Positions 630 to 14,159 of a stretch of 14,621 nucleotides of DNA are shown here, in pieces. Within the stretch, counting starts at the first letter, position 1. Each line of letters begins with the position of its first letter. The DNA comes from Candidatus Schekmanbacteria bacterium. Lineage in GTDB: Bacteria > Schekmanbacteria > GWA2-38-11 > J061. The notes under the pieces were generated by a model. The model did no database searches and was not told the DNA's origin. It worked only from the letters and a program-made list of their open reading frames with translations. The translations under genes were made by a program, and so were the position numbers. The DNA is taken from the NCBI GenBank assembly GCA_016219965.1, contig JACRJM010000008.1:1-14621 (forward strand), given 5' to 3'.

Positions 630-815
630 ATTGGAAGAGATTTGAAAGGTGTAGTATGTATAGATATGAAGAATAATATCAACCAATTGAGGCTTTACAA
701 AGTATCTCTATTTTGCTAAGTATAGCGCCGTTTTAGACGTGTCATAAATCTCCGCGGAAACTTGGCAGAAAATTCGCAATATAATGACCTTTTAAATACT
801 GGAGAGGAGCTTATC

Positions 816-2003
816 ATGGAGAAAGTTGTAATAGTAAGTGCAGTAAGAACTCCATTTGGAAACTTTGGGGGTATACTTAAAGATTTTACACCCGCTCAGC
901 TTGGCGGAATTGCAATAAAAGAAGCTATGAACCGTATAAAGCTTGACCCTGCAAAGGTTGAAGAGGTTGCGTTAGGAGTAAACCTTCCGGGCTCAGACAG
1001 GTCTATTGCAAGGCAGGCAGAGCTAAATGCAGGAATCCCTGACTCCGTTCCGGCTTACACATTAGACAGGGCATGCTGTTCAAGTCTCACAGCAATAGGG
1101 CTTGAATCTCAAAACATAATGCTCGGCCAGATTGCTGTTGCTGTTGCAGGTGGCGCGGAAAACATGAGCCAGGTCCCATATTTCATCCATGAAGCGAGAT
1201 GGGGGCAAAAGATCGGGGACATAACACTTAAGGACCAGCTTGTAATCAAGTGTCCATATTCAGGCGTTCCACGTGCCCTGCAGGCAGGAATAGAATCAGT
1301 TGAATTTGGCATTTCAAGAGAAGACCAGGACCGATGGGCACTGCGCAGCCAGCAGGCATGGGCAAAAGCATTCGAAAGCGGGAAATTCGGCGATGAGATA
1401 GTGCCCGTACCCATTCCGCAGAGGAAGGGAGATCCTGTAATGTTCAGCAAGGACGAACCTCCGCGCCCCGAAACAACAATAGAACAGCTCGCAAAACTGA
1501 AAACTGTTTATGACAGCCCCACAGTAACACCCGGAAATGCGCCGGGACTCAACACAGGAGCAAGTGCAGTAGTCCTTATGAGCGAGACTAAAGCTAAAGA
1601 ATTAGGACTTAAACCGATTGCAACTATTGTTTCTCATGTAAGAAATGCGGGCCATCCTCAGAGGATTGGTTCTATCCCCGGTTACACCGCACAAATAGCT
1701 TTAAAGAAAGCTGGGCTCACCATTGATGATATAAGCCTGATAGAAATTAACGAGGCATTTGCCGCAATGCCTCTCATATCAACGAAGATTCTCGGAAACA
1801 ACGATGATGCTAAAATCGCTGCCATAAGGGAAAAAACAAATGTAAACGGGGGAGCCATCGCCATAGGTCATCCCACAGGCGCAACAGGCGCAAGACTTGT
1901 TATGACCCTTGCCTATGAGCTTAAGAGACGTGGAGGTGGCTATGCGCTTGCAACAATTTGCGGAGGCATAGGCGAAGGGGAAGCATGCATAATCAAGGTT
2001 TGA
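816..2003 (+). CDS. Thiolase family protein (acetyl-CoA C-acyltransferase)
   Basis: This 395-residue protein has the standard thiolase length. Thiolases cleave 3-ketoacyl-CoA with CoA or run the condensation in reverse. The nucleophilic Cys is C87 in RACCSSL. The C-terminal half has NEAFA (N312-E313), H352 in GGAIAIGHPTGATGAR and C382 in CGGIGEG, so the Cys-His-Cys set is intact. GGAENMS (112-118) and the GISREDQDRWALRSQQ helix (165-180) are also typical. The N-x-x-C before the nucleophile is D-x-x-C, and the usual MGxTAE loop is degenerate, so substrate range may differ from common thiolases. I chose the ATG at 816 because GGAGAGGAG lies just before it; the frame extends up to a TTG at 762 without a good ribosome-binding site. 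It is the first gene of a four-gene operon and lies 36 bp ahead of the mutase gene. Confidence 0.9.
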   Translation: MEKVVIVSAVRTPFGNFGGILKDFTPAQLGGIAIKEAMNRIKLDPAKVEEVALGVNLPGSDRSIARQAELNAGIPDSVPAYTLDRACCSSLTAIGLESQNIMLGQIAVAVAGGAENMSQVPYFIHEARWGQKIGDITLKDQLVIKCPYSGVPRALQAGIESVEFGISREDQDRWALRSQQAWAKAFESGKFGDEIVPVPIPQRKGDPVMFSKDEPPRPETTIEQLAKLKTVYDSPTVTPGNAPGLNTGASAVVLMSETKAKELGLKPIATIVSHVRNAGHPQRIGSIPGYTAQIALKKAGLTIDDISLIEINEAFAAMPLISTKILGNNDDAKIAAIREKTNVNGGAIAIGHPTGATGARLVMTLAYELKRRGGGYALATICGGIGEGEACIIKV

Positions 2004-2039
2004 GATACTGTTAGAAATAAAATCGGAGAGGCAACTTTA

Positions 2040-3722
2040 ATGGACAAGAACGAACTAAAGAAAATTGAGCAGCAGAAGCTGGAATGGGAAAAAAATGAAC
2101 TTGCTGATTATTTAAAAACAGCACCTGAACGGGCTAAACAATTTGAGACAAACTCAGAAATCCCTGTTGAAAGGGTCTATACGCCAATTGAACTTGATAA
2201 AGAGGGATTTGATTTTGAAAAAGACCTGGGATTTCCCGGACAGTTTCCTTATACCCGGGGCATAACTCCATCCATGTTCAGAAGCCAGCTATGGACAATG
2301 GGTCAATACTCCGGGTTCGGCAGTGCCGAAGATACAAACAAAAGATATAAGTATCTTCTTGCGCAGGGACAGAAGGGAAACAGCGTAGCTTTCGATCTTC
2401 CTACGCAGTTGGGTTACGACTCCGACCATCCGGTTGCAAGCGGCGAAGTCGGAAAAGTTGGCGCGGCTGTTGATACCCTTCGCGATTTTGAGATACTCTT
2501 TGACGGTATTTCCATAGGTGAAATACGCCAGTCTATGACTATCAATGCAACGGCTACAATAATACTTTCCATGTATATTGCAATCGCTGAAAAACAGGGA
2601 ATACCCAAAAGCGATATCGAAGTATTCATGCAGAATGATATCCTAAAAGAATACGTTGCCCGCGGAGCTTACATATTTCCGGTAAAGCCATCAATAAAAC
2701 TCGTTACAGATATTTATGAATATTGTTCTAAATATATGCCAAAATCATCACCTCAGCGGATTTGCGGCTACCATATGCGCGAAGCAGGCTCAAATGCCGT
2801 ACAGGAGCTGGCATTTACGCTTGCCAATGCCATAAGCTACCTGACTGCCGCAAAGGAAAGAGGTTTGAACATCGACGACTTTGCACATGGGCTTCTTATA
2901 TTCCTCTCAGGCGATGGTGAGTTTTTCGAAGAGATAGCAAAGTTCAGGGCATGCCGCAGGATGTGGGCAAAGATGATGAGGGAAAGGTTCGGAGCCAAAG
3001 ACCCCCGTTCGATGCAGGTAAGGTTTTTCGGCTACACGGCCGGTTCAACAATGACAGCCCAGCAGCCTTTGAATAATATAATAAGAGCAACCATTGAATC
3101 AATGGCAATGCTTTTGGGCGGTGGAAATATCATATTTGTATCGTCGTATGATGAATCTCTGGCGCTCCCCTCGGAAGAGTCGGTCACAATAGCTCTGAGA
3201 ACGCAGCAGATAATAGCTGAAGAATCCGGAATTGCAAAAACCGTTGATCCTATCGGCGGCTCATATTATGTAGAAACTCTTACAAACAGGCTTGAAAAAG
3301 AAGCTCTCAAATATATCCAGAAAATAGATGAAATGGGAGGCTCCGTAATAGCAATAGAAAAAGGATATATCCAGGAAGAGATAGCGAGAGAATCGTACAA
3401 GATGCAGAAGAAAATTGAGAAGGGGGAAAAGGCGATCGTAGGTGTCAATAAATACAGAGACAATAAACAGCAGAAGACTGCGATACTCAAGGTCGACCCT
3501 GATGTAGAGAGAAATCAGAAAGAACGCTTAAGGCAGGTTAAAAGAGACAGAGACAACGAAAAGGTAAAACAAATACTCTCAAAAATAAAAGAAGTGGCTG
3601 TGACAAAAGAGAATATCATGCCAACAATGATAGAAGCTGTAAAATGCTATGCAAGCATTGGTGAAATAAGCGATGCACTTCGCGAGGTATATGGGAAATA
3701 CGAAGGGAAAGTCTATTTATAG
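2040..3722 (+). CDS. Coenzyme-B12-dependent acyl-CoA mutase, large (substrate-binding) subunit, divergent
   Basis: These 560 residues cover the TIM-barrel catalytic domain of the methylmalonyl-CoA mutase family and stop before any B12-binding domain (no DxHxxG), so it is the large subunit of a two-subunit enzyme. Family hallmarks are FPYTRGI (69-75), QKGNSVAFDLPTQLGYDSDHP (111-131), QNDILKEY (198-205), GYHMREAG (243-250) and TVDPIGGSYYVE. By alignment to Propionibacterium MCM, with numbering from memory, Tyr89, Gln197, Arg207, His244 and Glu370 are kept as Y90, Q198, R208, H245 and E372. Many substrate-pocket and CoA contacts are changed: T76, Q83, G88, F196, G284, L286, F330, Y332, N363 and S368 replace Tyr75, Arg82, Arg87, Thr195, Arg283, Ser285, His328, Gln330, Gln361 and Asn366. 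The kept Tyr/Arg pair argues against isobutyryl- or 2-hydroxyisobutyryl-CoA mutase and for a carboxylated substrate. GGAGAGG precedes the ATG. The small subunit must be encoded elsewhere. Confidence 0.88.
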   Translation: MDKNELKKIEQQKLEWEKNELADYLKTAPERAKQFETNSEIPVERVYTPIELDKEGFDFEKDLGFPGQFPYTRGITPSMFRSQLWTMGQYSGFGSAEDTNKRYKYLLAQGQKGNSVAFDLPTQLGYDSDHPVASGEVGKVGAAVDTLRDFEILFDGISIGEIRQSMTINATATIILSMYIAIAEKQGIPKSDIEVFMQNDILKEYVARGAYIFPVKPSIKLVTDIYEYCSKYMPKSSPQRICGYHMREAGSNAVQELAFTLANAISYLTAAKERGLNIDDFAHGLLIFLSGDGEFFEEIAKFRACRRMWAKMMRERFGAKDPRSMQVRFFGYTAGSTMTAQQPLNNIIRATIESMAMLLGGGNIIFVSSYDESLALPSEESVTIALRTQQIIAEESGIAKTVDPIGGSYYVETLTNRLEKEALKYIQKIDEMGGSVIAIEKGYIQEEIARESYKMQKKIEKGEKAIVGVNKYRDNKQQKTAILKVDPDVERNQKERLRQVKRDRDNEKVKQILSKIKEVAVTKENIMPTMIEAVKCYASIGEISDALREVYGKYEGKVYL

Positions 3723-3752
3723 AAATAAACGCGTTAAAAAGGAGGATAAATC

Positions 3753-4970
3753 ATGAGCAATCCGAGACGCCCCCTTGACGGCATAAGGGTTCTGGGCGTG
3801 GAAAACCAGGTAGCAGGACCATATTGTACGATGATGCTGGCTGCACAGGGCGCAGAAGTAATAAAGATAGAATCTCCGGGCACAGGGGACTCAGCAAGAG
3901 AAATGGGTCCCATAATAAAAAATGCTAAGGGAGAAAAATTCAGCGGCTATTTCCTCCGTTTCAACAGAAACAAGAAGGGAATTACCCTTGATATCAACAG
4001 CGAGCGTGGAAAAGAGATTTTCAAAGAACTTGTCAAAGAAAGCGACGTAATTGTTGAGAATTTCAGGCCTGGATTCATGGATAAAAATGGTCTCGGCTAC
4101 AGCGTTCTGCGTGAGATAAATCCAAGAATAATATATGCCGCCATAAGCGGTTTCGGACAGATGAAGGGATTCGAAGGGCCATTTCAGAAAAGAACTGCTT
4201 TTGACATGGTTGTACAGTCAATGGGCGGACTGATGCACAATGTGGGAGAAGAGGACGGCCCTCCGAACTGGCTGGGTATTGCTCTGGGTGATATATACTC
4301 AGGGGTAATGGCTGCTTACGGAATACTTCTTGCATTAATGGTGCGCGAGAAGACCGGAGAGGGACAGTTCATAGACAGCTCTATGTACGACAACATGATA
4401 TCCCTTAATGAAAGAGCCCTAACTGCATACTCCCTTACAGGCAATATCATGGGACGCGGTAAGGAGTCTCTTGTATACCCAATCGGACCATACAAGGTTA
4501 AGGACGGATATGTAGCAATGATTATTCCCATTGAATCTATCTGGGGAAAGCTTTGTCAGACCATAGGCAGGGAAGATCTTGCAAAAGACGAAAGATTTAA
4601 CTCCGGCCCCAATAGGGCAAAGAATGCAGGCATATTGAAGCCAATCATAGACGAATGGATGAAGGACAAAACAAAGAAGGAGGCAACAGATCTTCTCCTT
4701 CAGGGTGGAGTCCCCGTAGGACCAGTACAGGACTCAAAAGATATCTTCGAGTGCCCCCATGCAAATGCAAGGCAGATGTTCCCTGAAATCGAACAGACTC
4801 CAATAGGAAAAGTAAAGATCGTTGACCTGCCACTTAAGATGTCAGGTGTTGACAAGGTAAAGCCAGGACCTGCCCCGCTCCTCGGCCAGAATACGGACGA
4901 AGTGCTTTCCAATATACTTAATTTAAGTGCTGACCAGATAGCAAAACTCAGGGCCGAAAAGATAGTGTGA
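3753..4970 (+). CDS. Family III (CaiB/BaiF) CoA-transferase
   Basis: At 405 residues it matches the usual length of formyl-CoA transferase-type enzymes, which move CoA between carboxylic acids through an aspartyl-CoA thioester. The N-terminus PLDGIRVLGVENQVAGPYCTM, then GAEVIKIESPGTGDSAR (33-49), the NRNKKGITLD stretch (71-80) and VENFRPGFMDKNGLGY (101-116) are classic for the family. D180 in WLGIALGD is the expected catalytic Asp. The C-terminal part (VPVGPVQDSKDIFECPHANARQM) is also typical. It has a strong ribosome-binding site (AAGGAGG) and lies 30 bp after the mutase gene. In this setting it probably activates the pathway acid, as the related BbsEF activates benzylsuccinate, but the acid cannot be read from sequence. 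Confidence 0.92.
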   Translation: MSNPRRPLDGIRVLGVENQVAGPYCTMMLAAQGAEVIKIESPGTGDSAREMGPIIKNAKGEKFSGYFLRFNRNKKGITLDINSERGKEIFKELVKESDVIVENFRPGFMDKNGLGYSVLREINPRIIYAAISGFGQMKGFEGPFQKRTAFDMVVQSMGGLMHNVGEEDGPPNWLGIALGDIYSGVMAAYGILLALMVREKTGEGQFIDSSMYDNMISLNERALTAYSLTGNIMGRGKESLVYPIGPYKVKDGYVAMIIPIESIWGKLCQTIGREDLAKDERFNSGPNRAKNAGILKPIIDEWMKDKTKKEATDLLLQGGVPVGPVQDSKDIFECPHANARQMFPEIEQTPIGKVKIVDLPLKMSGVDKVKPGPAPLLGQNTDEVLSNILNLSADQIAKLRAEKIV

Positions 4971-4998
4971 CAATAAAAAATAAGACGGAGGATATCCA

Positions 4999-5481
4999 AT
5001 GCCAAAGGTTAAAGATGTTCATAGACTTGGAGTGATCGTAAAAGATTTAGAGAAAGCAGTAGATTTTTTTGTGAACAATTTTGGCGCAAAAAAAGGGATC
5101 GTATACAGAAAAGATGAAACTGAAAATTTTCCGATCGTATATGATGAAATAGAACCTGAAGGACTAAAGTCATGTTATGTCACTCTGGGACAGGATTTCC
5201 AGATTGAGCTTATGTCACCTTCAAAGCCTGACGGCAATATAGCAAAGCTCCTTGAGAAGCGTGGGGAAGGAATCCTTACCGTATGCTTTCAGGTTGACAG
5301 CGTAGATGAAGCTATCAAAGAACTCGAATCAAAAGGAGTAAGAATCGTAGGTAAAGAACAACTTAACTGGATAACAAAAATAAAGATGGCAGATGGGAGC
5401 ATAAAGGAAGTACCTACACCTTATGTTTTTGTTCATCCGAAAGATGCATTCGGGCTTATGATAGAGATTGGGCTCAGATAA
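4999..5481 (+). CDS. VOC-superfamily protein related to methylmalonyl-CoA epimerase
   Basis: The 160-residue protein has two beta-alpha-beta-beta-beta modules of the vicinal oxygen chelate fold: VHRLGVIVKDLEKAVDFF (7-24) with FQIELMSP (67-74), then ILTVCFQVDSVDEAIKELESKG (92-113) with FGLMIEI (151-157). Placed against methylmalonyl-CoA epimerase, metal ligands H8, E70 and E156 are in place, but the His of the family's GLHHxA motif is replaced (GILTVCF, L93/T94). A full mutase-type epimerase metal site is therefore not present. Position after the mutase and CoA-transferase genes, 28 bp downstream, suggests it acts on the mutase substrate or product. It is the last gene before a terminator. It could instead be a non-epimerase VOC enzyme. 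Confidence 0.75.
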   Translation: MPKVKDVHRLGVIVKDLEKAVDFFVNNFGAKKGIVYRKDETENFPIVYDEIEPEGLKSCYVTLGQDFQIELMSPSKPDGNIAKLLEKRGEGILTVCFQVDSVDEAIKELESKGVRIVGKEQLNWITKIKMADGSIKEVPTPYVFVHPKDAFGLMIEIGLR

Positions 5482-5588: not shown

Positions 5589-6245
5589 ATGACTAATATG
5601 GCAAAAAAAGAGTCTCAAGAAAGAGTCAATGAGATTTTGGCTATTGTGGAGAAAACCTATTCTGATGCGACAATCGCACTTGAATGTAAAAACCCATTCC
5701 AGCTTCTTGTTGCAACAATTCTTTCAGCGCAATGCACAGATAAAAGGGTAAATATTGTTACAAAGGATCTTTTCAAAAAATATCCGACCGTACAATCAGT
5801 AGCTGAAGCTGTTCCTTCTGAATTCGAAAATGATATTAGATCAACAGGGTTTTTCAGGAACAAGGCAAAAAACATTATAGCAACATCTAATATTCTTGTT
5901 GAGAAATACGGCGGGAAAATCCCTAAGACAATGGAAGAACTTACAGCGCTTCCCGGTATTGCCAGGAAGACGGCAAACATAATCCTCACATTCGGGTTTG
6001 GGATAATAGACGGCATTGCGGTTGACACTCATGTAAGCAGAGTCTCAAAACGGCTTGGACTCACTGATTCAGACAATCCTGAAAAAATTGAACAACATCT
6101 GATGGCAATAATCCCAAAATCTGAATGGGGCAATTTCAACTCCCGCATTATACGGCACGGCAGGGAGGTTTGCTTTGCCAGAAAGCCTGCATGCGGTATT
6201 TGTCCATTGAACAAAGTCTGCCCGTCTGCCGGCAAAATCAAATAA
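5589..6245 (+). CDS. nth: Endonuclease III (DNA glycosylase/AP lyase)
   Basis: This removes oxidised pyrimidines and cleaves the abasic site by beta-elimination in base-excision repair. The 218 residues match the family length. LSAQCTDKRVN (45-55) is the conserved N-terminal motif, LPGIARKTAN (121-130) is the helix-hairpin-helix with catalytic K127, and D146 in AVDTHVSR is the catalytic Asp. The C-terminal C195-x6-C202-x2-C205-x5-C211 pattern binds the [4Fe-4S] cluster. The start is uncertain: ATG 5589 or ATG 5598; TTGGA at 5584-5588 is spaced better for the second. It begins about 40 bp after the terminator, so it has its own promoter, which I could not place. The 3'-phosphoesterase gene follows after 20 bp. 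Confidence 0.95.
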   Translation: MTNMAKKESQERVNEILAIVEKTYSDATIALECKNPFQLLVATILSAQCTDKRVNIVTKDLFKKYPTVQSVAEAVPSEFENDIRSTGFFRNKAKNIIATSNILVEKYGGKIPKTMEELTALPGIARKTANIILTFGFGIIDGIAVDTHVSRVSKRLGLTDSDNPEKIEQHLMAIIPKSEWGNFNSRIIRHGREVCFARKPACGICPLNKVCPSAGKIK

Positions 6246-6265
6246 ATGTAAAAGGTTCTTTTGTT

Positions 6266-6751
6266 ATGCCTCTTGAACAATACAGGAAGAAGAGGAATTT
6301 TAAAAAAACCACTGAACCTTCGGGCGAAGATTTCCCCCCCAGAGGTGAAAATCTTATCTACACAATTCAGGAGCACCATGCATCGCACCTCCATTATGAT
6401 TTAAGACTTGAGATTGAAGGAGTACTAAAGTCCTGGGCGATCCCTAAAGAACCTGATCTTTCCGGCATTGCAAAACGCCTTGCAGTTCAGACTGAAGACC
6501 ATCCGATCGGCTATGAAAACTTTGAGGGGGAAATTCCGGAAGGTGAATATGGTGCAGGAGATGTAAAAATATGGGATAAGGGAACATGGGCTCCACTTGA
6601 AATTAAAGACGACAGGATAATTGCTGAAATTTGCGGGGAAAAAATTATAGGCGTGTGGTGCCTGATCAAACTGAAAAAAGATAAATTCTCTAAAAAGGAT
6701 GCTTCAAGCCAGAACTGGTTGTTTTTCAAAAAAAAGGAGAAGAAGAAATAA
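6266..6751 (+). CDS. Stand-alone LigD-type DNA 3'-phosphoesterase
   Basis: The 161-residue protein is the phosphoesterase domain found at the N-terminus of many bacterial ligase D proteins, here without polymerase or ligase domains. The domain trims 3'-phosphate and 3'-ribonucleotide ends to give 3'-OH. The motif QEHHASHLHYDLRLE (35-49) supplies H37, H43, D45 and R47, and H79 in TEDHPIGY matches the remaining active-site His (by comparison with Pseudomonas LigD, from memory). VKIWDKGTW (100-108) and the closing NWLFFK are also typical. The ATG at 6266 has AAAGG upstream; a longer reading into the nth gene would lack the usual start. The Lys-rich tail (KKKEKKK) may bind DNA. It follows nth by 20 bp, so both probably act on damaged 3' ends. 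Confidence 0.9.
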   Translation: MPLEQYRKKRNFKKTTEPSGEDFPPRGENLIYTIQEHHASHLHYDLRLEIEGVLKSWAIPKEPDLSGIAKRLAVQTEDHPIGYENFEGEIPEGEYGAGDVKIWDKGTWAPLEIKDDRIIAEICGEKIIGVWCLIKLKKDKFSKKDASSQNWLFFKKKEKKK

Positions 6752-9087
6752 TCAATAAAAGCAGTCCCTTCAGAAATATTGGCATCCCTGTATGTCTGGT
6801 CATTATATATGTTCTTGCCCGCCTCTGGGTTCTATCCTCCGGAACATTCATGTGGAATGATGAAGAGTTATACAATGGCAACATTGCTAGAGATCTTATA
6901 AAAGGGTTGAGCCTTCCTTTTTTTGATTACATGTTCACACCATATCACGGGGGATCGCTTGTCATTGGTATTCTCGCAGTCCCTTTTTTCCTTATTTTCG
7001 GTGAAACTTATTTTGCCCTCAAACTTGTTGGACTCACGATATCAGCGCTGGGATTGATATTTTTTTTTCTTACCATCAGACGCCATATAGGTGAACGTGC
7101 TGCCCTGCTGTCTTCCCTGATTTATATATTCTCCCCGTCTCTTTTCACAGAATCTACTCTTGTATCATGGGGAAACCACACTGAATCTATCTGTCTTGTG
7201 TGGATAATATATTTTCTGCTTCTTGAATTTATAGAAAATGAACATAACAGTGATAAAATCTTATATACTTTGTTATTGGGTGCGGTTTCCGGGTTTTCAC
7301 TTTTTTTCGCATATATCTCTCTTTATGCGATAGCTTACAGCCTGCTCATTTTTTTAATGTTAAACAGAGGAAAATTGTTTTGGAAAAAAACATCTCTATA
7401 TTGTGCATCTTTCACAGCAGGATTTTCACCATGGATATACTATAACTTAACGCACCATTTTGAAGGTCTTTCAATTGTCAAACGTTATTCAATTGGTGAG
7501 AAGGGAAGCTCAGCTCTCACTTTTATTGGCAAAGTATTAAAATATTTTACCTTTGATATCCCCGGCCTTTTTGATTTTTATAACCCCAGCAGCATTTCCT
7601 TTTCTCCTGTGCAGTTTGTGTTCTATCTTATTTTCATTGGAGGATTTATTCTGCTAATCATTGAAAACAGAAAAGCCCTTTTTTCTATTTTTCAAAAAAC
7701 AAATCCAGAGTCAGAGAAAAGTAAACCTTTAAATCGTGAAACAAAGGAAATCATTCTGCTTGGAGGATTCATTGCTTTTACCTTGTTCTTTCTTTTAAGC
7801 AAAGTTTTCACAGGGGATAAACTTGATGATAGACTTTATGGATTAAGATACATAACACATATTTACCCCTATGCATTTCTTACGCTTGGACTTTTGACAG
7901 AACGGTTTCTTTCTTCAAAAGGAAGAGTATGGAAATCATCGGGAATAATTCTACTGGCATTTTTTCTCATCATAGGATTGCTTGCTAACAGATGGATACC
8001 TGACAGATCAGACCCTCTCAAATATTCCATGATGGACGGATTCTCATTTATGAGATTCGGATGGTCTATTCCTAAAAAATACGAGTTAGATTTCAACAAG
8101 TATATTTCGATCGGTGAAGGAATAGACGCTGCCTACCGTCATGAATATTATTCCGGTATAGGGATGTACATCGCAGGCAAAGGACTAATATGGAAAAAAC
8201 ACTTTGAACAATATGAACCACTCTATCCCCTTATTGATGCAAACCTTCCATACGATCTCGAAACTTACTTCTACGAAGGGAATGGGAAGGAAATTGGGGC
8301 TAATTCCATATTTAATCTTTATAAGAATTCCATTAATAACATTAAGAAATTCCCTGAAAAGTTTCAGCGTTTCGGATTTATTGGAATGGCAAGAGCAGTG
8401 GATGAAAGCACCGTCCCAGAAACAGATATAAAAAATATCATCAGAGATGTACCCGAGGAATATAGAATATTTTTTCTAAAATCCCTGGGTGAAAGGCTTT
8501 TGACTGAGGAAGGGAATCTTAAAGCAACTGTGACAAGGGTTGAAAAATTGTCTTACAGCAGGCTGGAAAAAAGCGCAGTTTATAGCGGAATAGGGAGAAG
8601 TCTTATAAAACAGTTGCATGGAAATATTAAGTTTGCCGTTGATATGACGCAAGATAACAGTATCCCTTTTTTCGCAAGGGCTGAACTGCTTGAATCACTG
8701 GGAGAACAATTTTTTACTCTTTATAAACAACATTTAAACCTGTTGCCTGAGACAATAGAGCTTCTGAGTAAAGAAGAAAAAGAATTTATATTTAGAGGAA
8801 TAGGATTAAGTATGGCAGATAAATATGGTTTTTACATTCCTTTCATTATAAGAGAGATTGAAATCCCTTTAGGAGTCACTTCGGCGGAATTCATCATGGA
8901 AGGGATTGGCAAAGCTTTATTTATCAGATACGGTTATAATATAGATATTGCTGAAAATATATTAAGGGGAGCGGAGTTAAACAATTATTATCCGCACCTT
9001 TTTGAAGGATTCAGAAAAGCTGCATCGGAATCCTCTAATTTCACAGCCCAAAAGGAAGATATTAAAGATATTAAATTAGACAGGTAA
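6748..9087 (+). CDS. GT-C membrane glycosyltransferase (GT39/ArnT-like) with C-terminal 35-residue repeats; probable non-standard ATA start
   Basis: The first ATG (6850) would give 745 residues but cuts off an open, in-frame first membrane helix (GIPVCLVIIYVLARLWVLSS). The frame is open from 6694 and holds no ATG, GTG or TTG before 6850. ATA at 6748 overlaps the upstream stop as ATAA and lies 8 bases after AAGGAG, so I place the start there (779 residues). GT-C enzymes carry an acidic motif right after helix 1; here it is WNDEELYNG. About ten more hydrophobic segments follow to residue 380 (745-residue numbering). The C-terminal half looks soluble, and GΦG motifs recur every 34-36 residues from 509 to 722. 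The protein likely moves a sugar from a polyprenyl-phosphate donor at the outer face of the membrane. The GT2 gene follows after 7 bp. Confidence 0.75.
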   Translation: MINKSSPFRNIGIPVCLVIIYVLARLWVLSSGTFMWNDEELYNGNIARDLIKGLSLPFFDYMFTPYHGGSLVIGILAVPFFLIFGETYFALKLVGLTISALGLIFFFLTIRRHIGERAALLSSLIYIFSPSLFTESTLVSWGNHTESICLVWIIYFLLLEFIENEHNSDKILYTLLLGAVSGFSLFFAYISLYAIAYSLLIFLMLNRGKLFWKKTSLYCASFTAGFSPWIYYNLTHHFEGLSIVKRYSIGEKGSSALTFIGKVLKYFTFDIPGLFDFYNPSSISFSPVQFVFYLIFIGGFILLIIENRKALFSIFQKTNPESEKSKPLNRETKEIILLGGFIAFTLFFLLSKVFTGDKLDDRLYGLRYITHIYPYAFLTLGLLTERFLSSKGRVWKSSGIILLAFFLIIGLLANRWIPDRSDPLKYSMMDGFSFMRFGWSIPKKYELDFNKYISIGEGIDAAYRHEYYSGIGMYIAGKGLIWKKHFEQYEPLYPLIDANLPYDLETYFYEGNGKEIGANSIFNLYKNSINNIKKFPEKFQRFGFIGMARAVDESTVPETDIKNIIRDVPEEYRIFFLKSLGERLLTEEGNLKATVTRVEKLSYSRLEKSAVYSGIGRSLIKQLHGNIKFAVDMTQDNSIPFFARAELLESLGEQFFTLYKQHLNLLPETIELLSKEEKEFIFRGIGLSMADKYGFYIPFIIREIEIPLGVTSAEFIMEGIGKALFIRYGYNIDIAENILRGAELNNYYPHLFEGFRKAASESSNFTAQKEDIKDIKLDR

Positions 9088-9094
9088 TGAGCGA

Positions 9095-9817
9095 ATGTCT
9101 GAAAATATAATACTAATTCCGACTTATAACGAGATTGAAAACATAGGTGTCATAGTAAATGAGATCCTATCAACTTACGACCACCAGTTTGACATTCTTA
9201 TTATTGATGACAATTCTACTGACGGAACCAAAGAACTTGTAAATGAACTTGCGCACAAACATGAGGGGCGTGTCATGGTGCTTAACAGAGAGAAAAAGGA
9301 AGGCCTCGGTGTTGCGTACAGAGCAGGAATGAAGATCGCCCTTGCGAAAAATTACAAATACATTTTGCAGATGGATGCTGACCTTTCACATCAGCCTCAA
9401 TATCTGAAAAATTTTCTTGAGGCGGCAAAAGGTGCAGACCTTGTCGTTGGTTCAAGATATCTTAACGGAATAAGCATAGTTAACTGGCCTCTCCGCAGGC
9501 TCATTTTAAGTCTCTGGGCAAACAAATACGTGAGATTTTTTACAGGTCTAAAGCTTACAGATTTTACAAGTGGCTTCAGATGTTTCAGAAGCGAGCTTTT
9601 AAACAAAATCCCTCTGGACCATATGTTCTCCGATGGCTATGCTTTCCTCGTAGAGCTGACATACCGCTCGTTCCATCTGAATGCAAAGATAAGCGAGATA
9701 CCTATAGTCTTCATTGAACGTCGCAACGGGGAATCAAAGATAAACTACACTGTTTGCCTTGAGGCTGCAGTTATCCCTCTGAAGCTGAGATTTAAAAAAC
9801 TTCTGGGAACTTTGTAA
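9095..9817 (+). CDS. Polyprenyl-phosphate sugar synthase (DPM1-like GT2 glycosyltransferase)
   Basis: This 240-residue GT-A fold enzyme resembles dolichol-phosphate mannosyltransferase, which makes a polyprenyl-phosphate hexose from a nucleotide sugar at the cytoplasmic face. The nucleotide- and metal-binding motifs are IIDDNSTDGT (36-45) and MDADLSHQP (93-101). SRYLNG (120-125), FTSGFRCFR (157-165), DGYAFLVEL (180-188) and RRNGESKINY (209-218) are the acceptor-side motifs typical of the DPM1 group. It has no C-terminal membrane helices, as in single-domain DPM1 forms. The spacing of 7 bp after the GT-C gene points to translational coupling and a donor-maker/user pair. The sugar could be mannose or glucose. 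Its stop is only 6 bp from the stop of the convergent AOR gene, and I see no terminator hairpin between them. Confidence 0.9.
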   Translation: MSENIILIPTYNEIENIGVIVNEILSTYDHQFDILIIDDNSTDGTKELVNELAHKHEGRVMVLNREKKEGLGVAYRAGMKIALAKNYKYILQMDADLSHQPQYLKNFLEAAKGADLVVGSRYLNGISIVNWPLRRLILSLWANKYVRFFTGLKLTDFTSGFRCFRSELLNKIPLDHMFSDGYAFLVELTYRSFHLNAKISEIPIVFIERRNGESKINYTVCLEAAVIPLKLRFKKLLGTL

Positions 9818-9823
9818 CTGCCT

Positions 9824-11611
9824 TTAAATCCCGAGTTCTGAAATCTTTTCCTTTGTAGGCACGCCGTTGTTGTCCCAACCGCGCAAAGCATAGTACTCTG
9901 TAAGCATCGGTTCGAAATCAACTGTTTCCCCCTTCGATGGCCCCTCAGACATAGGTTCACTTATGACGCGCGGAGGCAGGGAATCATCTTTTCTTGTAAA
10001 CCCTGCTTTAACATTAAAAAGCCTCTCAACGTTAAATATTCTTTCTCCAGCCTTTATATAATCATCAAGCGTGAAATTGTGTCCAGTTGCTGCACTGATA
10101 AGCTTGGTAAAAGGTTCATGCTGGACAACAACAGTGGCAAAAAGGCAGGCACCTGTCGAATCAATCGCAGCATTAAGGTTCTGAAAATCCCGTGCTAGTT
10201 CAGCTTTCCCCTCTGTTATCTTAGCTTTAACTTTTTTTGGAATACCGAAAAGTTCTGCAAAAACCGTAGCTCCTCTCGTATGGTCTCCACCACGAGGGTT
10301 GGTAGAATATGTAAGCGCCATCCCTTTTGCACCGCGCGGATCGTAAGCTGATATCTCCATTTTTTTCGAAGTCATTGAGAGTTCAGGTCTTCCATATTTT
10401 TCTGCAAGCCTGTAACTGCCAAGTGCAAGGAGATCTCCAAAGCCCTCGCGAAGACCTGTTTTTCTTGTAAGCTCTACCATTGCCTTCGCATCACCAAATT
10501 TAAGAGGCATTCCGACTTCTTTCTCACTTATAAGCCCGAGTTCAAAAAGTTCCATTGCCGTCGCAATAGTTACACCCACAGATATGCTGTCCATACCTAG
10601 CTCATTGCAGATATAATTCGCCTTTGCCACTGCATTTATATTGTCAATCCCGCAGGTAGAACCAAATGCATATATAGTTTCATACTCAGGGCCTTCCCCT
10701 GTTCCTTCGAAACCTTCTTCCTTGACCCTGGTCACGCGCCCACAACCCAGCACACAGCCGTGACAACTTCTTTTCCTTACAAGTATCTTGTCCCTTATTG
10801 CCTGTCCGTTGAGATTCGGAGCACCTGCGAAAACTCCTTCACGGTAGTTGTTGGTAGGGAAAATGCCTACTGCATTGCAGTAATCAACAGCCATTGGAGT
10901 TCCAAAGTAACCATACCCCTTGGCAACATCTCCTTTGAAGAGGTTTGAAATCTCAACATTCACATCCCTGAACCCGTCAGCCACTGCAAAACCCTTTGTA
11001 CCTCTCACAGCGATAGCTTTAACATTTTTTGAACCCATCACTGCACCAACACCTGACCTGGCAGCAGACCTGTTCATGTCATTTATTATTGCTGCCATTA
11101 GAACAAGCTTTTCTCCGGCAGGTCCGATACATGCAACCTTTGCCCTGTGATCTGTCTTTGATTTTAGGGCTTTTGTAGTCTCATGGGTATTCATCCCCCA
11201 AAGCTCAGATGCATCCTTCAATTCAATCTTGTCGTTGTTGATCCAGATATAGATTGGCTTTGGAGACTTTCCTTCAAGGATTATGCCATCGAAACCAGCA
11301 GCCTTTAACTCCGGTCCCCAGTATCCGCCTGAATTGGAACATGCAATTGTCCCGGTCTGTGGAGATTTAGTCACAACCATGAATCTTGCTGCGCAGGGAG
11401 CACCTGTCCCTGTAAGCGGACCGGTCATTATAAACAATTTGTTATCTGGGGAAAGCGGGTCTATAGTTGCATCAATCTCATCCAAGAGCATCTTTGACGC
11501 AATTCCTCTTCCACCTATATATTTTTTTGCAAGGTCCTCGTTTAAAGGCTCAACAGTACACTTGCTTTCCGTAAGATTTATCCTAAGGATTTTTCCAGTC
11601 CATCCTTTCAT
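9824..11611 (-). CDS. Aldehyde:ferredoxin oxidoreductase family tungstopterin enzyme
   Basis: At 595 residues it is close to the length of archaeal AOR, which oxidises aldehydes to acids (or reduces acids) with ferredoxin. The N-terminal domain begins with GWTGKILRINLT and has YIGGRGIASKML and GPLTGTGAPCAARF (64-77). The [4Fe-4S] cluster ligands are C283, C286, C290 (CHGCVLGC) and C489 (STGACLF). The pterin-binding segments are NDMNRSAARSGVGAVMGSKN (177-196) and AYDPRGAKGMALTYSTNPRG (422-441). GPEYETIYAFGS and H444 in GGDHTRG match the catalytic Glu and His regions. The start overlaps the ferredoxin gene by 4 bp (ATGA), so the two are coupled. Class II benzoyl-CoA reductase (BamB) is in the same family, but nothing here supports that use. 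The aldehyde or acid substrate is unknown. Confidence 0.92.
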   Translation of the reverse strand: MKGWTGKILRINLTESKCTVEPLNEDLAKKYIGGRGIASKMLLDEIDATIDPLSPDNKLFIMTGPLTGTGAPCAARFMVVTKSPQTGTIACSNSGGYWGPELKAAGFDGIILEGKSPKPIYIWINNDKIELKDASELWGMNTHETTKALKSKTDHRAKVACIGPAGEKLVLMAAIINDMNRSAARSGVGAVMGSKNVKAIAVRGTKGFAVADGFRDVNVEISNLFKGDVAKGYGYFGTPMAVDYCNAVGIFPTNNYREGVFAGAPNLNGQAIRDKILVRKRSCHGCVLGCGRVTRVKEEGFEGTGEGPEYETIYAFGSTCGIDNINAVAKANYICNELGMDSISVGVTIATAMELFELGLISEKEVGMPLKFGDAKAMVELTRKTGLREGFGDLLALGSYRLAEKYGRPELSMTSKKMEISAYDPRGAKGMALTYSTNPRGGDHTRGATVFAELFGIPKKVKAKITEGKAELARDFQNLNAAIDSTGACLFATVVVQHEPFTKLISAATGHNFTLDDYIKAGERIFNVERLFNVKAGFTRKDDSLPPRVISEPMSEGPSKGETVDFEPMLTEYYALRGWDNNGVPTKEKISELGI

Positions 11612-12093
11612 AGTTCTTTTACCCCCTTAAGTTTTTCCCCAAGATCTGCGAAGAGCTTTTCTCTTTCAGCTTTCTCCTCAGGAGTAATTTCTCTCCACTC
11701 GATAGCTCTGTCCTTACAAAAAATAACGCATTCAGGATTCCCGTTACAAAAATCACATTTAATGGCATGTCCTAAATCATCATAAGGGAAAATATGTTTA
11801 ACCGGACATTCATCAATGCATGCCCCGCACCCTGTACATGTCTCCTCATCTATCCTAACTATACCTGATTCAGGATCTTTAGAGATTGCGTCTACAGGAC
11901 AGACAGATAGACACGGAGGATTGTCACACTGGAAGCAGGTTAGCGGATAATAAAGATGTTCCTCATCAAAAGTCACACATTTGATTTTGGAATAAAAGCT
12001 CGTAAATACATTGAAGTATTTATGCGAGCATGCTGCTTCGCACCTCTTGCAACTTGTACACTTCTTGGGATTGAATTGAATTACATTTGGCAT
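11608..12093 (-). CDS. Four-cluster [4Fe-4S] ferredoxin-like electron-transfer subunit
   Basis: The 161-residue protein has sixteen cysteines in four cluster motifs: C12/15/18/22, C53/56/61/65, C86/89/92/96 and C113/116/122/126. The pattern is that of DmsB/HycB-type subunits that wire a molybdo- or tungstoenzyme to its partner. VRIDEETCTGCGACIDECP is a textbook bacterial ferredoxin motif. The C-terminal 30 residues are charged and helical. No twin-arginine or Sec signal is present, so it should be cytoplasmic. AAGGGGG lies 6 bases before its ATG. Its 4-bp overlap with the AOR gene makes it the likely electron carrier for that enzyme, as AorA is for AorB in Aromatoleum. Confidence 0.92.
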   Translation of the reverse strand: MPNVIQFNPKKCTSCKRCEAACSHKYFNVFTSFYSKIKCVTFDEEHLYYPLTCFQCDNPPCLSVCPVDAISKDPESGIVRIDEETCTGCGACIDECPVKHIFPYDDLGHAIKCDFCNGNPECVIFCKDRAIEWREITPEEKAEREKLFADLGEKLKGVKEL

Positions 12094-12120
12094 CTAAAAA
12101 CCCCCTTCGATTTTTATAAC

Positions 12121-13242
12121 TTAATTTGCCTCTGAGAGAGCAAATTCTATTTCACTTCTTATACTATCTTCCGTCCTTCTGTTCAATGCCGAATTAAGCA
12201 TTTGTCTTGCCATTTCTCCTCCGATCATGCCTGCTGCCCAAGCCGCATATCCTGCAAGTTCTTCATCACTATTATAAAGCAAGCTCTGTAATACCGGAAG
12301 TGCCCTTTCATCGTGGAAATTCCCGAGACCTAGAACTGCATTGCGCTGAAGATACTTCTTGTCCATCAGAAAAAAACCCATAAGCGTCATTGCATATCCA
12401 TTATCCCATTCTTCATCAGTAATCTCTGCTATCTTAAAAAGCGGCGGATAAAGAAGTTCTTTTGGAGTTTCATATCCTTCTACTTTTTTTAGATTCCGGT
12501 TTTTCGGACATGCATCCCTGCATACGGTACACCCTTCTCCAAGCAGATTGCCGCACTTTGCCCGTATTTCATGGGGAATATTTTTTTTGTTATGCCCAAG
12601 ATGAAAATCAATACACTTTGTCATATCGCACCTGTAAGGCACAGATAGTGCGTTAGTAGGACAAGCTCTCATGCAAAGATCACATTTCCCGCAAACATCA
12701 TTCATTGACTGATCGGGCTCCATTTCTGCATCAGTTATAAAAGCTCCCAGTGTTATCCATGACCCGTAATCAGGATGAAGGATGACGGCATTTTTCCCAT
12801 AAACACCTACCCCACACTTAGAAGCCATGAGCTTTATAGGAAATGAACCTCCAGTCATTGAAAAACACTGACAGCCCTTCCCTGTAAAAAAATCAGTAAG
12901 CTTTGAACTCCTCTCTGCATTATTTTGAAGATATTTCACATTCACGTGAGACTGCTCAGCACATCCTAGAAGTTCCCTTCGGCACTCCTCAAAGCTTTGC
13001 ATCCTCCCCAAAAACCCAGGAGTTCCAACTATTACTACAGATTTTGCTTCAGGCAACAAATCTTTAGGCTGAAAAACAGTTTCAATCCCTCCTGAAAGAG
13101 GTGTAGCCTCCGCAAATTTTTTCTGGACGAAAGAGAGCCTTTCCATGTCAGCACCCGAAAAATCATCAGCTGCAACAATTCCTACGAGCGGTATTTTGAG
13201 TTCCCTTTCAGCAAATTCCATAAAGTCAGATTTCAGACTCAT
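12121..13242 (-). CDS. QueG-like double [4Fe-4S] protein with C-terminal HEAT repeats
   Basis: The 373-residue protein has the layout of epoxyqueuosine reductase: an N-terminal domain, GVYGKNAVILHPDYGSWITLGAFI (146-169), a double-cluster ferredoxin domain with C184/187/190/194 and C230/238/241/245 (plus C205 and C210), then two or three HEAT helices from about 296 on (RNAVLGLGNFHDERALPVL; AGYAAWAAGMIGGEMARQML). QueG reduces epoxyqueuosine in tRNA using cobalamin. Its catalytic Asp sits in a DSxP motif; here the site reads TGGSFP (130-135), so the Asp is replaced by Gly. That makes true queuosine synthesis doubtful; a corrinoid- or Fe-S-based redox role is more likely. GAAGGGA precedes the ATG. 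It lies 27 bp ahead of the ferredoxin gene in the AOR operon. Confidence 0.82.
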   Translation of the reverse strand: MSLKSDFMEFAERELKIPLVGIVAADDFSGADMERLSFVQKKFAEATPLSGGIETVFQPKDLLPEAKSVVIVGTPGFLGRMQSFEECRRELLGCAEQSHVNVKYLQNNAERSSKLTDFFTGKGCQCFSMTGGSFPIKLMASKCGVGVYGKNAVILHPDYGSWITLGAFITDAEMEPDQSMNDVCGKCDLCMRACPTNALSVPYRCDMTKCIDFHLGHNKKNIPHEIRAKCGNLLGEGCTVCRDACPKNRNLKKVEGYETPKELLYPPLFKIAEITDEEWDNGYAMTLMGFFLMDKKYLQRNAVLGLGNFHDERALPVLQSLLYNSDEELAGYAAWAAGMIGGEMARQMLNSALNRRTEDSIRSEIEFALSEAN

Positions 13243-13268
13243 TTGTTATCCCTTCAATTTTATTCCTT

Positions 13269-13294
13269 AGTGAATGCAATAAATAGCATTTACT
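13269..13294. repeat. Imperfect inverted repeat between the HemF-like and QueG-like genes
   Basis: AGTGAATGC (13269-13277) and GCATTTACT (13286-13294) pair over nine positions with one mismatch and an eight-base loop. The 67-bp gap between the two genes is almost filled by this hairpin and the next ribosome-binding site. There is no T-run after it in the direction of the operon, so it is not a terminator. It could be an mRNA processing or stabilising hairpin. Confidence 0.4.
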
Positions 13295-13310
13295 CAATCC
13301 TACAGTTTCA

Positions 13311-14102
13311 TCAAGGAAAAAACTTTGCTGTTGGAGGAAGTATCGCCCCGAGCAGAGCTTCTGCCGGTATTCCCTTCTCGATTCCGAATATCGTGCCGCT
13401 ATCCTCAAGAAGAGTCCACTGTACCCACGCGCCGTGCTGTTTAAGCTTGTAGTCAATATCATTCTGCGTAAACTTCTGACCTTTACACTTTTCAACAAGG
13501 TCAAAATAGAGTTTTATAAAGGTGTCAGCCATATCCTTCATAAATGGATAGTCGCTTTCTTCAAGATGGAATGAGTAAATGCCGGCGTGAGCTCCAACCT
13601 TTTTGTTGGTATACTTGGATTTAAAAAAATTTGCCCTTACCTGTCTCAATTCCTCATAGTCCTTGCCATGCCTCTTGCAAAGCTCTTTTATCCCATCAGC
13701 AAAGTATTTTTCATCTTCTTCATTCGAATAATATGATTTTATATCCGTACCACCTGCGAACACAACTTTGTCAGTTATATTTGCTCGAAGCTCAATATAC
13801 GCCTTTGGGATAAAAGGATTTATGGGAAAGAAATGAAGCTCGAGAACCATAGCATCAGCCTTGCTTCCTTTCTGCCCAAGTTTTTCTGCAAGCACCGGAG
13901 GGGTATCAATCTTGAGATCACAGTATATCATGCTCGCTTTATCAAACTGTTCACCGCTTGAAATGCTTACATCCAGCTTTCCCATGGGGATATCCCACGT
14001 TTTTCTTTCAATCTTTGCAGAGGGGTTATACCGAAGACATAACTGCTCATAACGCCTGATGACATCCATTAAAAAATTTACCACTTCGGATTTTTGCATC
14101 AT
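13311..14102 (-). CDS. Divergent HemF-fold protein (O2-dependent coproporphyrinogen III oxidase family) lacking the family's histidines
   Basis: These 263 residues align almost end to end with HemF. Matching landmarks are NPFIPKAYIELR (95-106, HemF NPYVPTSHANVR), FAGGTDIKSYYSNEED (115-130, FGGGFDLTPFYGFEED), NFFKSKYTNKKVGAHAGIY (158-176) and EDSGTIFGIEKGIPAEALL (233-251, DRGTLFGLQTGGRTESIL). HemF oxidises coproporphyrinogen III in haem synthesis with O2. Here the conserved HemF His positions are lost: NFSHVHG reads IYCDLKI (59-65), HPHNP reads FPINP, SHAN reads AYIE, and KHR reads KYT. D234 of the DRGT motif is kept but the Arg is Ser. Ordinary coprogen oxidase activity is unlikely; tetrapyrrole binding or a new reaction is possible. 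GGAGGGG precedes the ATG at 14102. It is the first gene of the AOR operon. Confidence 0.8.
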   Translation of the reverse strand: MMQKSEVVNFLMDVIRRYEQLCLRYNPSAKIERKTWDIPMGKLDVSISSGEQFDKASMIYCDLKIDTPPVLAEKLGQKGSKADAMVLELHFFPINPFIPKAYIELRANITDKVVFAGGTDIKSYYSNEEDEKYFADGIKELCKRHGKDYEELRQVRANFFKSKYTNKKVGAHAGIYSFHLEESDYPFMKDMADTFIKLYFDLVEKCKGQKFTQNDIDYKLKQHGAWVQWTLLEDSGTIFGIEKGIPAEALLGAILPPTAKFFP

Positions 14103-14130: not shown

Positions 14131-14159
14131 CAATTAGCAGGTGTATCTATTTATGTCAA
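14131..14159 (-). promoter_or_regulatory. Sigma-70-type promoter for the HemF-like/QueG-like/ferredoxin/AOR operon
   Basis: On the minus strand a perfect TTGACA (14159-14154) is followed after 17 bases by TAATTG (14136-14131). The start point would be near 14124, about 22 bases before the ATG, which leaves room for the GGAGGGG ribosome-binding site. Confidence 0.6.

Follow-up and report, generated by a model that had tools for sequence, protein, structure and literature searches.

A QueG-like gene conserved beside an AOR-ferredoxin pair in Candidatus Schekmanbacteria

The genes for a QueG-like protein (QueGL), an AorA-type polyferredoxin (Fdx) and an AOR-family enzyme (AOR) form a conserved unit of four genomes from the phylum of Candidatus Schekmanbacteria, in which the gene for a HemF-like protein (HemFL) is a family-level addition. 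The window, which is the whole stretch of DNA that was analysed, represents the complete 14,621-base contig (G000:C8) of the 3.58-Mb genome G000. According to the ORF list, its minus strand carries four genes from 14102 to 9824 in the order HemFL, QueGL, ferredoxin and AOR, and together with a candidate promoter these constitute the following features:

14131..14159, minus strand: candidate promoter (TTGACA-17 nt-TAATTG, second hexamer preceded by TG) within sequence that is shared with the G001 operon
13311..14102, minus strand: HemF-like protein (HemFL), 263 aa, of the coproporphyrinogen oxidase fold family, non-canonical clade
12121..13242, minus strand: QueG-like protein (QueGL), 373 aa, with both [4Fe-4S] motifs and HEAT repeats present
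11608..12093, minus strand: AorA-type polyferredoxin (Fdx), 161 aa; its 16 cluster cysteines are invariant and its C-terminal tail is conserved
9824..11611, minus strand: AOR-family catalytic subunit (AorB-type), 595 aa, with Cys283/286/290/489, Glu311 and His444 conserved

Operon layout and conservation

The genes are closely spaced, with 68 nt between HemFL and QueGL, 27 nt between QueGL and Fdx and a 4-nt overlap of Fdx and AOR, and a purine-rich ribosome site lies ahead of each of the four starts. The four genes and the descriptions given to them in a first-pass annotation of this DNA are borne out by the open reading frames and by profile matches to Coprogen_oxidas, QueG, Fer4 and AFOR. 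The same annotation placed the genes behind one clear promoter. A scan for consensus promoters performed no better than chance (9 sites, as compared to 11.3 +/- 3.8 in shuffled sequences), but the TTGACA-17-TAATTG site about 28 bases ahead of the HemFL start is kept, inside a longer similar stretch, in G001, which is the only other of the four phylum genomes with the same four genes. This conservation between two related genomes is suggestive of a promoter. An Rfam search of the window, operon leader included, found neither a cobalamin riboswitch nor any other Rfam element.

The remainder of the window holds other genes. A large membrane protein and a family-2 glycosyltransferase are encoded at 6850-9817, convergent with AOR, and a relative of this membrane protein is also found 3' of AOR in G003 and G002, but on the same strand there. 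On the plus strand, an acyl-CoA pathway cluster at 762-5481 comprises thiolase, methylmalonyl-CoA-mutase-type, CoA-transferase III and glyoxalase/epimerase-type genes. At 5589-6751, an endonuclease III-like ORF overlaps with the next ORF, which encodes a LigD 3'-phosphoesterase domain.

The conservation set consisted of four Schekmanbacteria genomes, G000 and G001 from one family and G002 and G003 from another, with G003 in the same order as G000. QueGL, Fdx and AOR occur in that sequence in all four, and thus in both families. G001 possesses all four genes, arranged as in G000 (HemFL, QueGL, Fdx and AOR being 71, 61, 76 and 82% identical), while the operons of G003 (51, 83 and 87% identity for QueGL, Fdx and AOR) and G002 (50, 76 and 73%) lack HemFL and have unrelated genes upstream of the triplet; the one in G003 was judged by eye to be protein-isoaspartate-methyltransferase-like. 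QueGL identity is 49-52% between and 60-71% within the families, as compared to 65-87% for Fdx and AOR. HemFL is thus an operon member in only two of the four genomes; its G003 orthologue (68%) is located elsewhere amid unrelated genes, and in G002 only a broken remnant is found. The percent identities also hinted at a mosaic operon, with the Fdx-AOR part of G003 derived from the G000 lineage. This idea was dropped, because the trees for Fdx-AOR could not be separated by the AU test (p 0.65/0.49/0.16) and QueGL strongly supports the family split.

Three further genomes (G386, G387 and G388) were reached via QueGL relatives. All three have HemFL orthologues, which stand alone in G386 and G388, and QueGL orthologues at 56-57% identity are found in G386 and G387 without Fdx-AOR neighbours, while the relative in G388 is only 36% identical. 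A close Fdx orthologue was not detected in G386-G388, where the best match reached 84.8 bits as compared to about 330-343 for true orthologues. As the kinship and completeness of these genomes are not given, absence from them is weaker evidence than presence.

These data revise the picture of a four-gene system that had been drawn from the window. The association of the QueG-like gene with the AOR-ferredoxin pair is confirmed in every phylum genome of the set. The four-gene arrangement recurs in G001, but a fixed four-gene system is not supported, as HemFL belongs to only half of the operons; HemFL and QueGL relatives also exist in G386-G388, where the search gave no close Fdx orthologue. Since HemFL is loosely linked and relatives of the extra proteins exist without a close Fdx orthologue, a four-part tetrapyrrole machine is only partly supported. 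The link to the QueG-like protein is stronger, and that to the HemF-like protein weaker, than a reading of the sequence by itself could know, and as the phylum is represented by four genomes, the conservation has few independent points.

The AOR-ferredoxin pair and the QueG-like protein

AOR matches the AFOR_N and AFOR_C profiles over its full length at 290 and 480 bits and resembles solved AORs (9mqx, 1aor and 8c0z) from end to end. The His following its RGGD motif aligns with the catalytic His of P. furiosus AOR. Cys283/286/290/489 and Glu311 align with Cys295/298/302/509 and Glu331 of the Aromatoleum aromaticum enzyme, where the cluster cysteines and the Glu have been named (PMC10413684), and they are invariant in the four genomes. 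By family, the enzyme would be of the tungsten type, with its metal content predicted. Fdx matches Fer4 families, its 16 cysteines in four cluster motifs are invariant, and its C-terminal tail is conserved and charged; its best PDB match is AorA of 8c0z, followed by the Fe-S subunit of 9mqx. AOR and the 16-cysteine Fdx are therefore an ordinary AorB/AorA-type pair, and the pairing proposed earlier is upheld by domain matches, cluster residues and gene adjacency. G000 encodes twelve AOR-family genes altogether, several of which have their own four-cluster ferredoxin.

QueGL is a true full-length relative of the cobalamin-dependent epoxyqueuosine reductase QueG (2.4e-44 to 5d08), with which it shares both [4Fe-4S] motifs and the HEAT repeats (PDB 5d08, 5d6s). 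It matches the QueG model TIGR00276 at 148.1 bits, under the 200-bit equivalog cut-off, as well as Fer4_16 and HEAT_2, and it scores 38 bits with the reductive dehalogenase model TIGR02486, for which the cut-off is 160. The cluster ligands of QueG and the roles of its active-site residues, the DYH motif and an Asp, have been described (PMC4646009). All eight cluster cysteines (C184, 187, 190, 194, 210, 238, 241 and 245) are invariant across the QueGL orthologues, and the corrin domain retains its GKN and YGxW segments. The D100-Y101-H102 motif and D130 of QueG, in contrast, are lost in QueGL: the former reads K-Y-L, N-Y-L or D-F-L, so that Tyr is Phe in several orthologues, and the Asp is Gly, Ala or a gap. 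The earlier statement that key catalytic residues are missing is thus correct with respect to the active-site Asp and His. Confidence in the AF2 model of QueGL is low, with a pLDDT of 56.7 for the whole chain and of about 30 in the cluster domain; a fold search with it places the QueG chains 5d08/5d6s on top.

All four phylum genomes encode QueA as well as QueH, the epoxyqueuosine reductase that works without B12; in G000, G002 and G003 the two genes are no more than about 1.3 kb apart. QueGL is therefore not needed for queuosine, and as the step is covered by QueH, it is most likely repurposed. The best reading of its sequence is that of a repurposed class-III corrinoid-type protein that would exchange electrons with AOR via Fdx. 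A second QueG-like paralogue (34% identical) is found in G002 (L112:6452-8065) and G001 (L113:5550-7794), beside apparently ferritin-like proteins of 160-162 aa.

The HemF-like protein and its paralogues

HemFL matches Coprogen_oxidas (PF01218) over its full length (residues 24-261, 100.9 bits). Its HemF-equivalog score is 107.8 as compared to a cut-off of 297 bits, and it falls outside the canonical HemF clade with 100/100 support in the tree. With respect to the motifs of that clade, the His of SHxNxR is replaced by Tyr102, the Arg of RGxGG is lost, and DRGT and GGR have become DSGT and GIP; Arg106 and Asp130 are kept. HemFL thus lacks the His and most of the Arg motif residues, in line with the previous description of a HemF-like protein without key catalytic residues. 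A canonical HemF role was ruled out on the basis of the sub-cut-off score, the lost residues and the tree position. A structure predicted without an alignment reached a pLDDT of 46.6, and a single-protein scan of the genome contigs with HemFL gave no matches.

HemFL is one of the divergent HemF-like frames of G000, of which six are clear and a seventh is marginal; several are also found in most relatives (L002-L006, L040-L044). In the tree, the canonical HemF clade contains none of the HemF-like sequences of this group. Neighbours of the paralogues include a TonB receptor and UbiD (L040), UbiD (L039) and another AOR (L043). At L037:526-3001 (G001:C23), the neighbours of a HemF-like gene are one for an FDBR/RCCR-like protein (67 bits to PF05996) and one for a siroheme-reductase-like (nitrite/sulfite-reductase-domain) protein, and it is possible that this cluster handles tetrapyrroles. 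A diverged HemF is known from the tolyporphin pathway, where HemF2 acts in one pathway with the iron-sulfur protein TolI (PMC10548856); HemFL belongs to the same family as HemF and HemF2, yet it lies outside the canonical clade and its conserved His and Arg residues are gone. FDBR/RCCR-like sequences from Schekmanbacteria and the alpha/beta fold common to HemF and FDBR have already been published (PMC10151467), but HemFL itself does not match PF05996, the ferredoxin-dependent bilin reductase family, at E <= 1. For the HemF-like expansion, no paper was found in a search of openly licensed articles. Together with the published FDBR/RCCR-like proteins, the several diverged HemF-like proteins suggest an unexplored tetrapyrrole chemistry in Schekmanbacteria. 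By its fold, a tetrapyrrole is a plausible ligand of HemFL, which may be an optional, lineage-specific tetrapyrrole-fold accessory and not a core subunit.

Electron exchange, alternatives and known AOR systems

We tentatively favour, at somewhat short of even chances, a mechanism in which AOR and the four-cluster Fdx exchange low-potential electrons with the repurposed QueGL instead of AorC, the FAD/NAD subunit of AorABC enzymes; the acceptor would be either a corrinoid bound to QueGL or some small substrate. Electrons would pass from an aldehyde to the W cofactor, the AOR cluster and the four Fdx clusters, and from there over the two QueGL clusters to a corrinoid, probably base-off, in the nitroreductase-like domain of QueGL, where either some substrate or the corrinoid itself would be reduced. 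An aldehyde is favoured as donor in view of the very low potential of the electrons that AOR supplies, but a reverse flow toward AOR is possible; the physical complex, the direction of electron flow, corrinoid binding and the substrate are what we infer here. The mechanism is supported by the retention of the triplet order although QueGL diverges fast, and a repurposed redox role of QueGL by the eight cluster cysteines, the GKN and YGxW segments, the matches to the QueG fold and the redundancy with QueH. The QueGL orthologues of G386 and G387, which have neither Fdx-AOR neighbours nor a close Fdx orthologue, count against such a module. Doubtful, in our view, is the more specific proposal of a corrinoid-dependent reductase driven by aldehyde oxidation, in which a W-AOR and its polyferredoxin feed a non-tRNA QueG-family protein, with a HemF-fold tetrapyrrole-handling partner in one family.

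As alternative to electron partners, QueGL, possibly with HemFL, could be maturation, repair or insertion factors for AOR. Putative maturation genes, aorD/aorE among them, are indeed known from AOR operons (PMC6365974), and the fast divergence of QueGL beside a slow AOR fits an accessory role as well as electron transfer. However, the conservation of all eight cluster cysteines argues for a redox function, QueGL is present in G386/G387 where this Fdx was not found, and G000 has eleven further AOR-family genes and one close QueG-like protein, so that we think that this explanation is unlikely. We give still less credit to the idea that the AOR electrons convert a QueGL-held corrinoid from Co(II) into Co(I) and thereby activate or repair B12 enzymes, such as the mutase at 2040-3722. 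QueG does hold base-off cobalamin next to its clusters (PMC4646009), AOR operates at very low potential (PMC9295118), and the window also contains a methylmalonyl-CoA-mutase-type gene; but the mutase cluster is on the opposite strand, the operon lacks a corrinoid carrier protein, and the absence of riboswitches and other Rfam elements near the operon also speaks against this role.

Just as improbable as such a corrinoid reductase appears a chance or loose neighbourhood of independently useful genes under one promoter in one lineage, with HemFL as a passenger from a paralogue-rich family. HemFL standing alone in G003, G386 and G388, QueGL doing so in G386 and G387, and the 6-7 HemF-like paralogues in unrelated contexts would all be expected from it, but the triplet is kept across two families despite about 50% QueGL divergence, and G001 shows the order of all four genes again. 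That QueGL continues to serve these cells as epoxyqueuosine reductase is very improbable. G000 has no other close QueG relative, and QueA is present, but the ubiquity of QueH, its location near QueA in three genomes, the loss of residues that are important in QueG (PMC4646009) and the low TIGR00276 score are all at odds with this function, and a queuosine role was rejected because the genomes have QueA and QueH and the active site is lost.

Interest in AOR enzymes comes from their low-potential acid/aldehyde conversion; as electron partners of these enzymes, ferredoxin and AorC-type flavoproteins are known. If the electron-exchange mechanism is true, the conserved QueG-like partner would point to a new electron acceptor or outlet for AOR; QueGL would also be a QueG-type protein with a non-queuosine role, which would take class-III corrinoid-type proteins into functions other than dehalogenation and queuosine. 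No paper pairing AOR with QueG was found in a search of openly licensed literature. Among 26 AOR loci from genomes outside the phylum, whose flanks of about 1.5 kb were read, none has a QueG-like neighbour within these flanks, while an AorA-type ferredoxin adjoins AOR in eight. Of ten neighbours at such loci checked by Pfam, five are AorC-like Pyr_redox_2 genes that lie downstream on the same strand. Lokiarchaeal QueG-like/AOR neighbours (L152, L154) were rejected as further cases of the triplet, since their QueG-like protein is a different one of 286 aa and a 920-aa flavoprotein/CCG protein is encoded in between. By Pfam, the four operon genes of the window include no Pyr_redox protein and the next gene past AOR is convergent; in G002 and G003, the genes immediately next to the triplet belong to other families or do not have the size of AorC. 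That several AOR loci outside the phylum have AorC-like neighbours, and none a QueG-like one within the flanks read, counts in favour of the electron-exchange mechanism with QueGL instead of AorC.

The AOR with Fe-S subunit of PDB 9mqx is the nearest solved AOR by sequence (1.7e-204) and has the second-nearest ferredoxin, but only its AOR and Fe-S chains were matched, and the searches returned no QueG-like or HemF-like chain from it. The best described relative is AorABC of Aromatoleum aromaticum (PDB 8c0z; PMC6365974, PMC10413684), in which the ferredoxin AorA passes electrons to AorC and builds a filament by its C-terminal helix (PMC10413684). Both systems combine a W-type AOR with a four-cluster AorA ferredoxin from adjacent genes. 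The operon of the window differs in that its four genes include neither the AorC flavoprotein nor aorD/aorE and that a QueG-like gene lies ahead of the pair; QueGL is the third operon member beside AOR and Fdx, and it would be the functional replacement of AorC.
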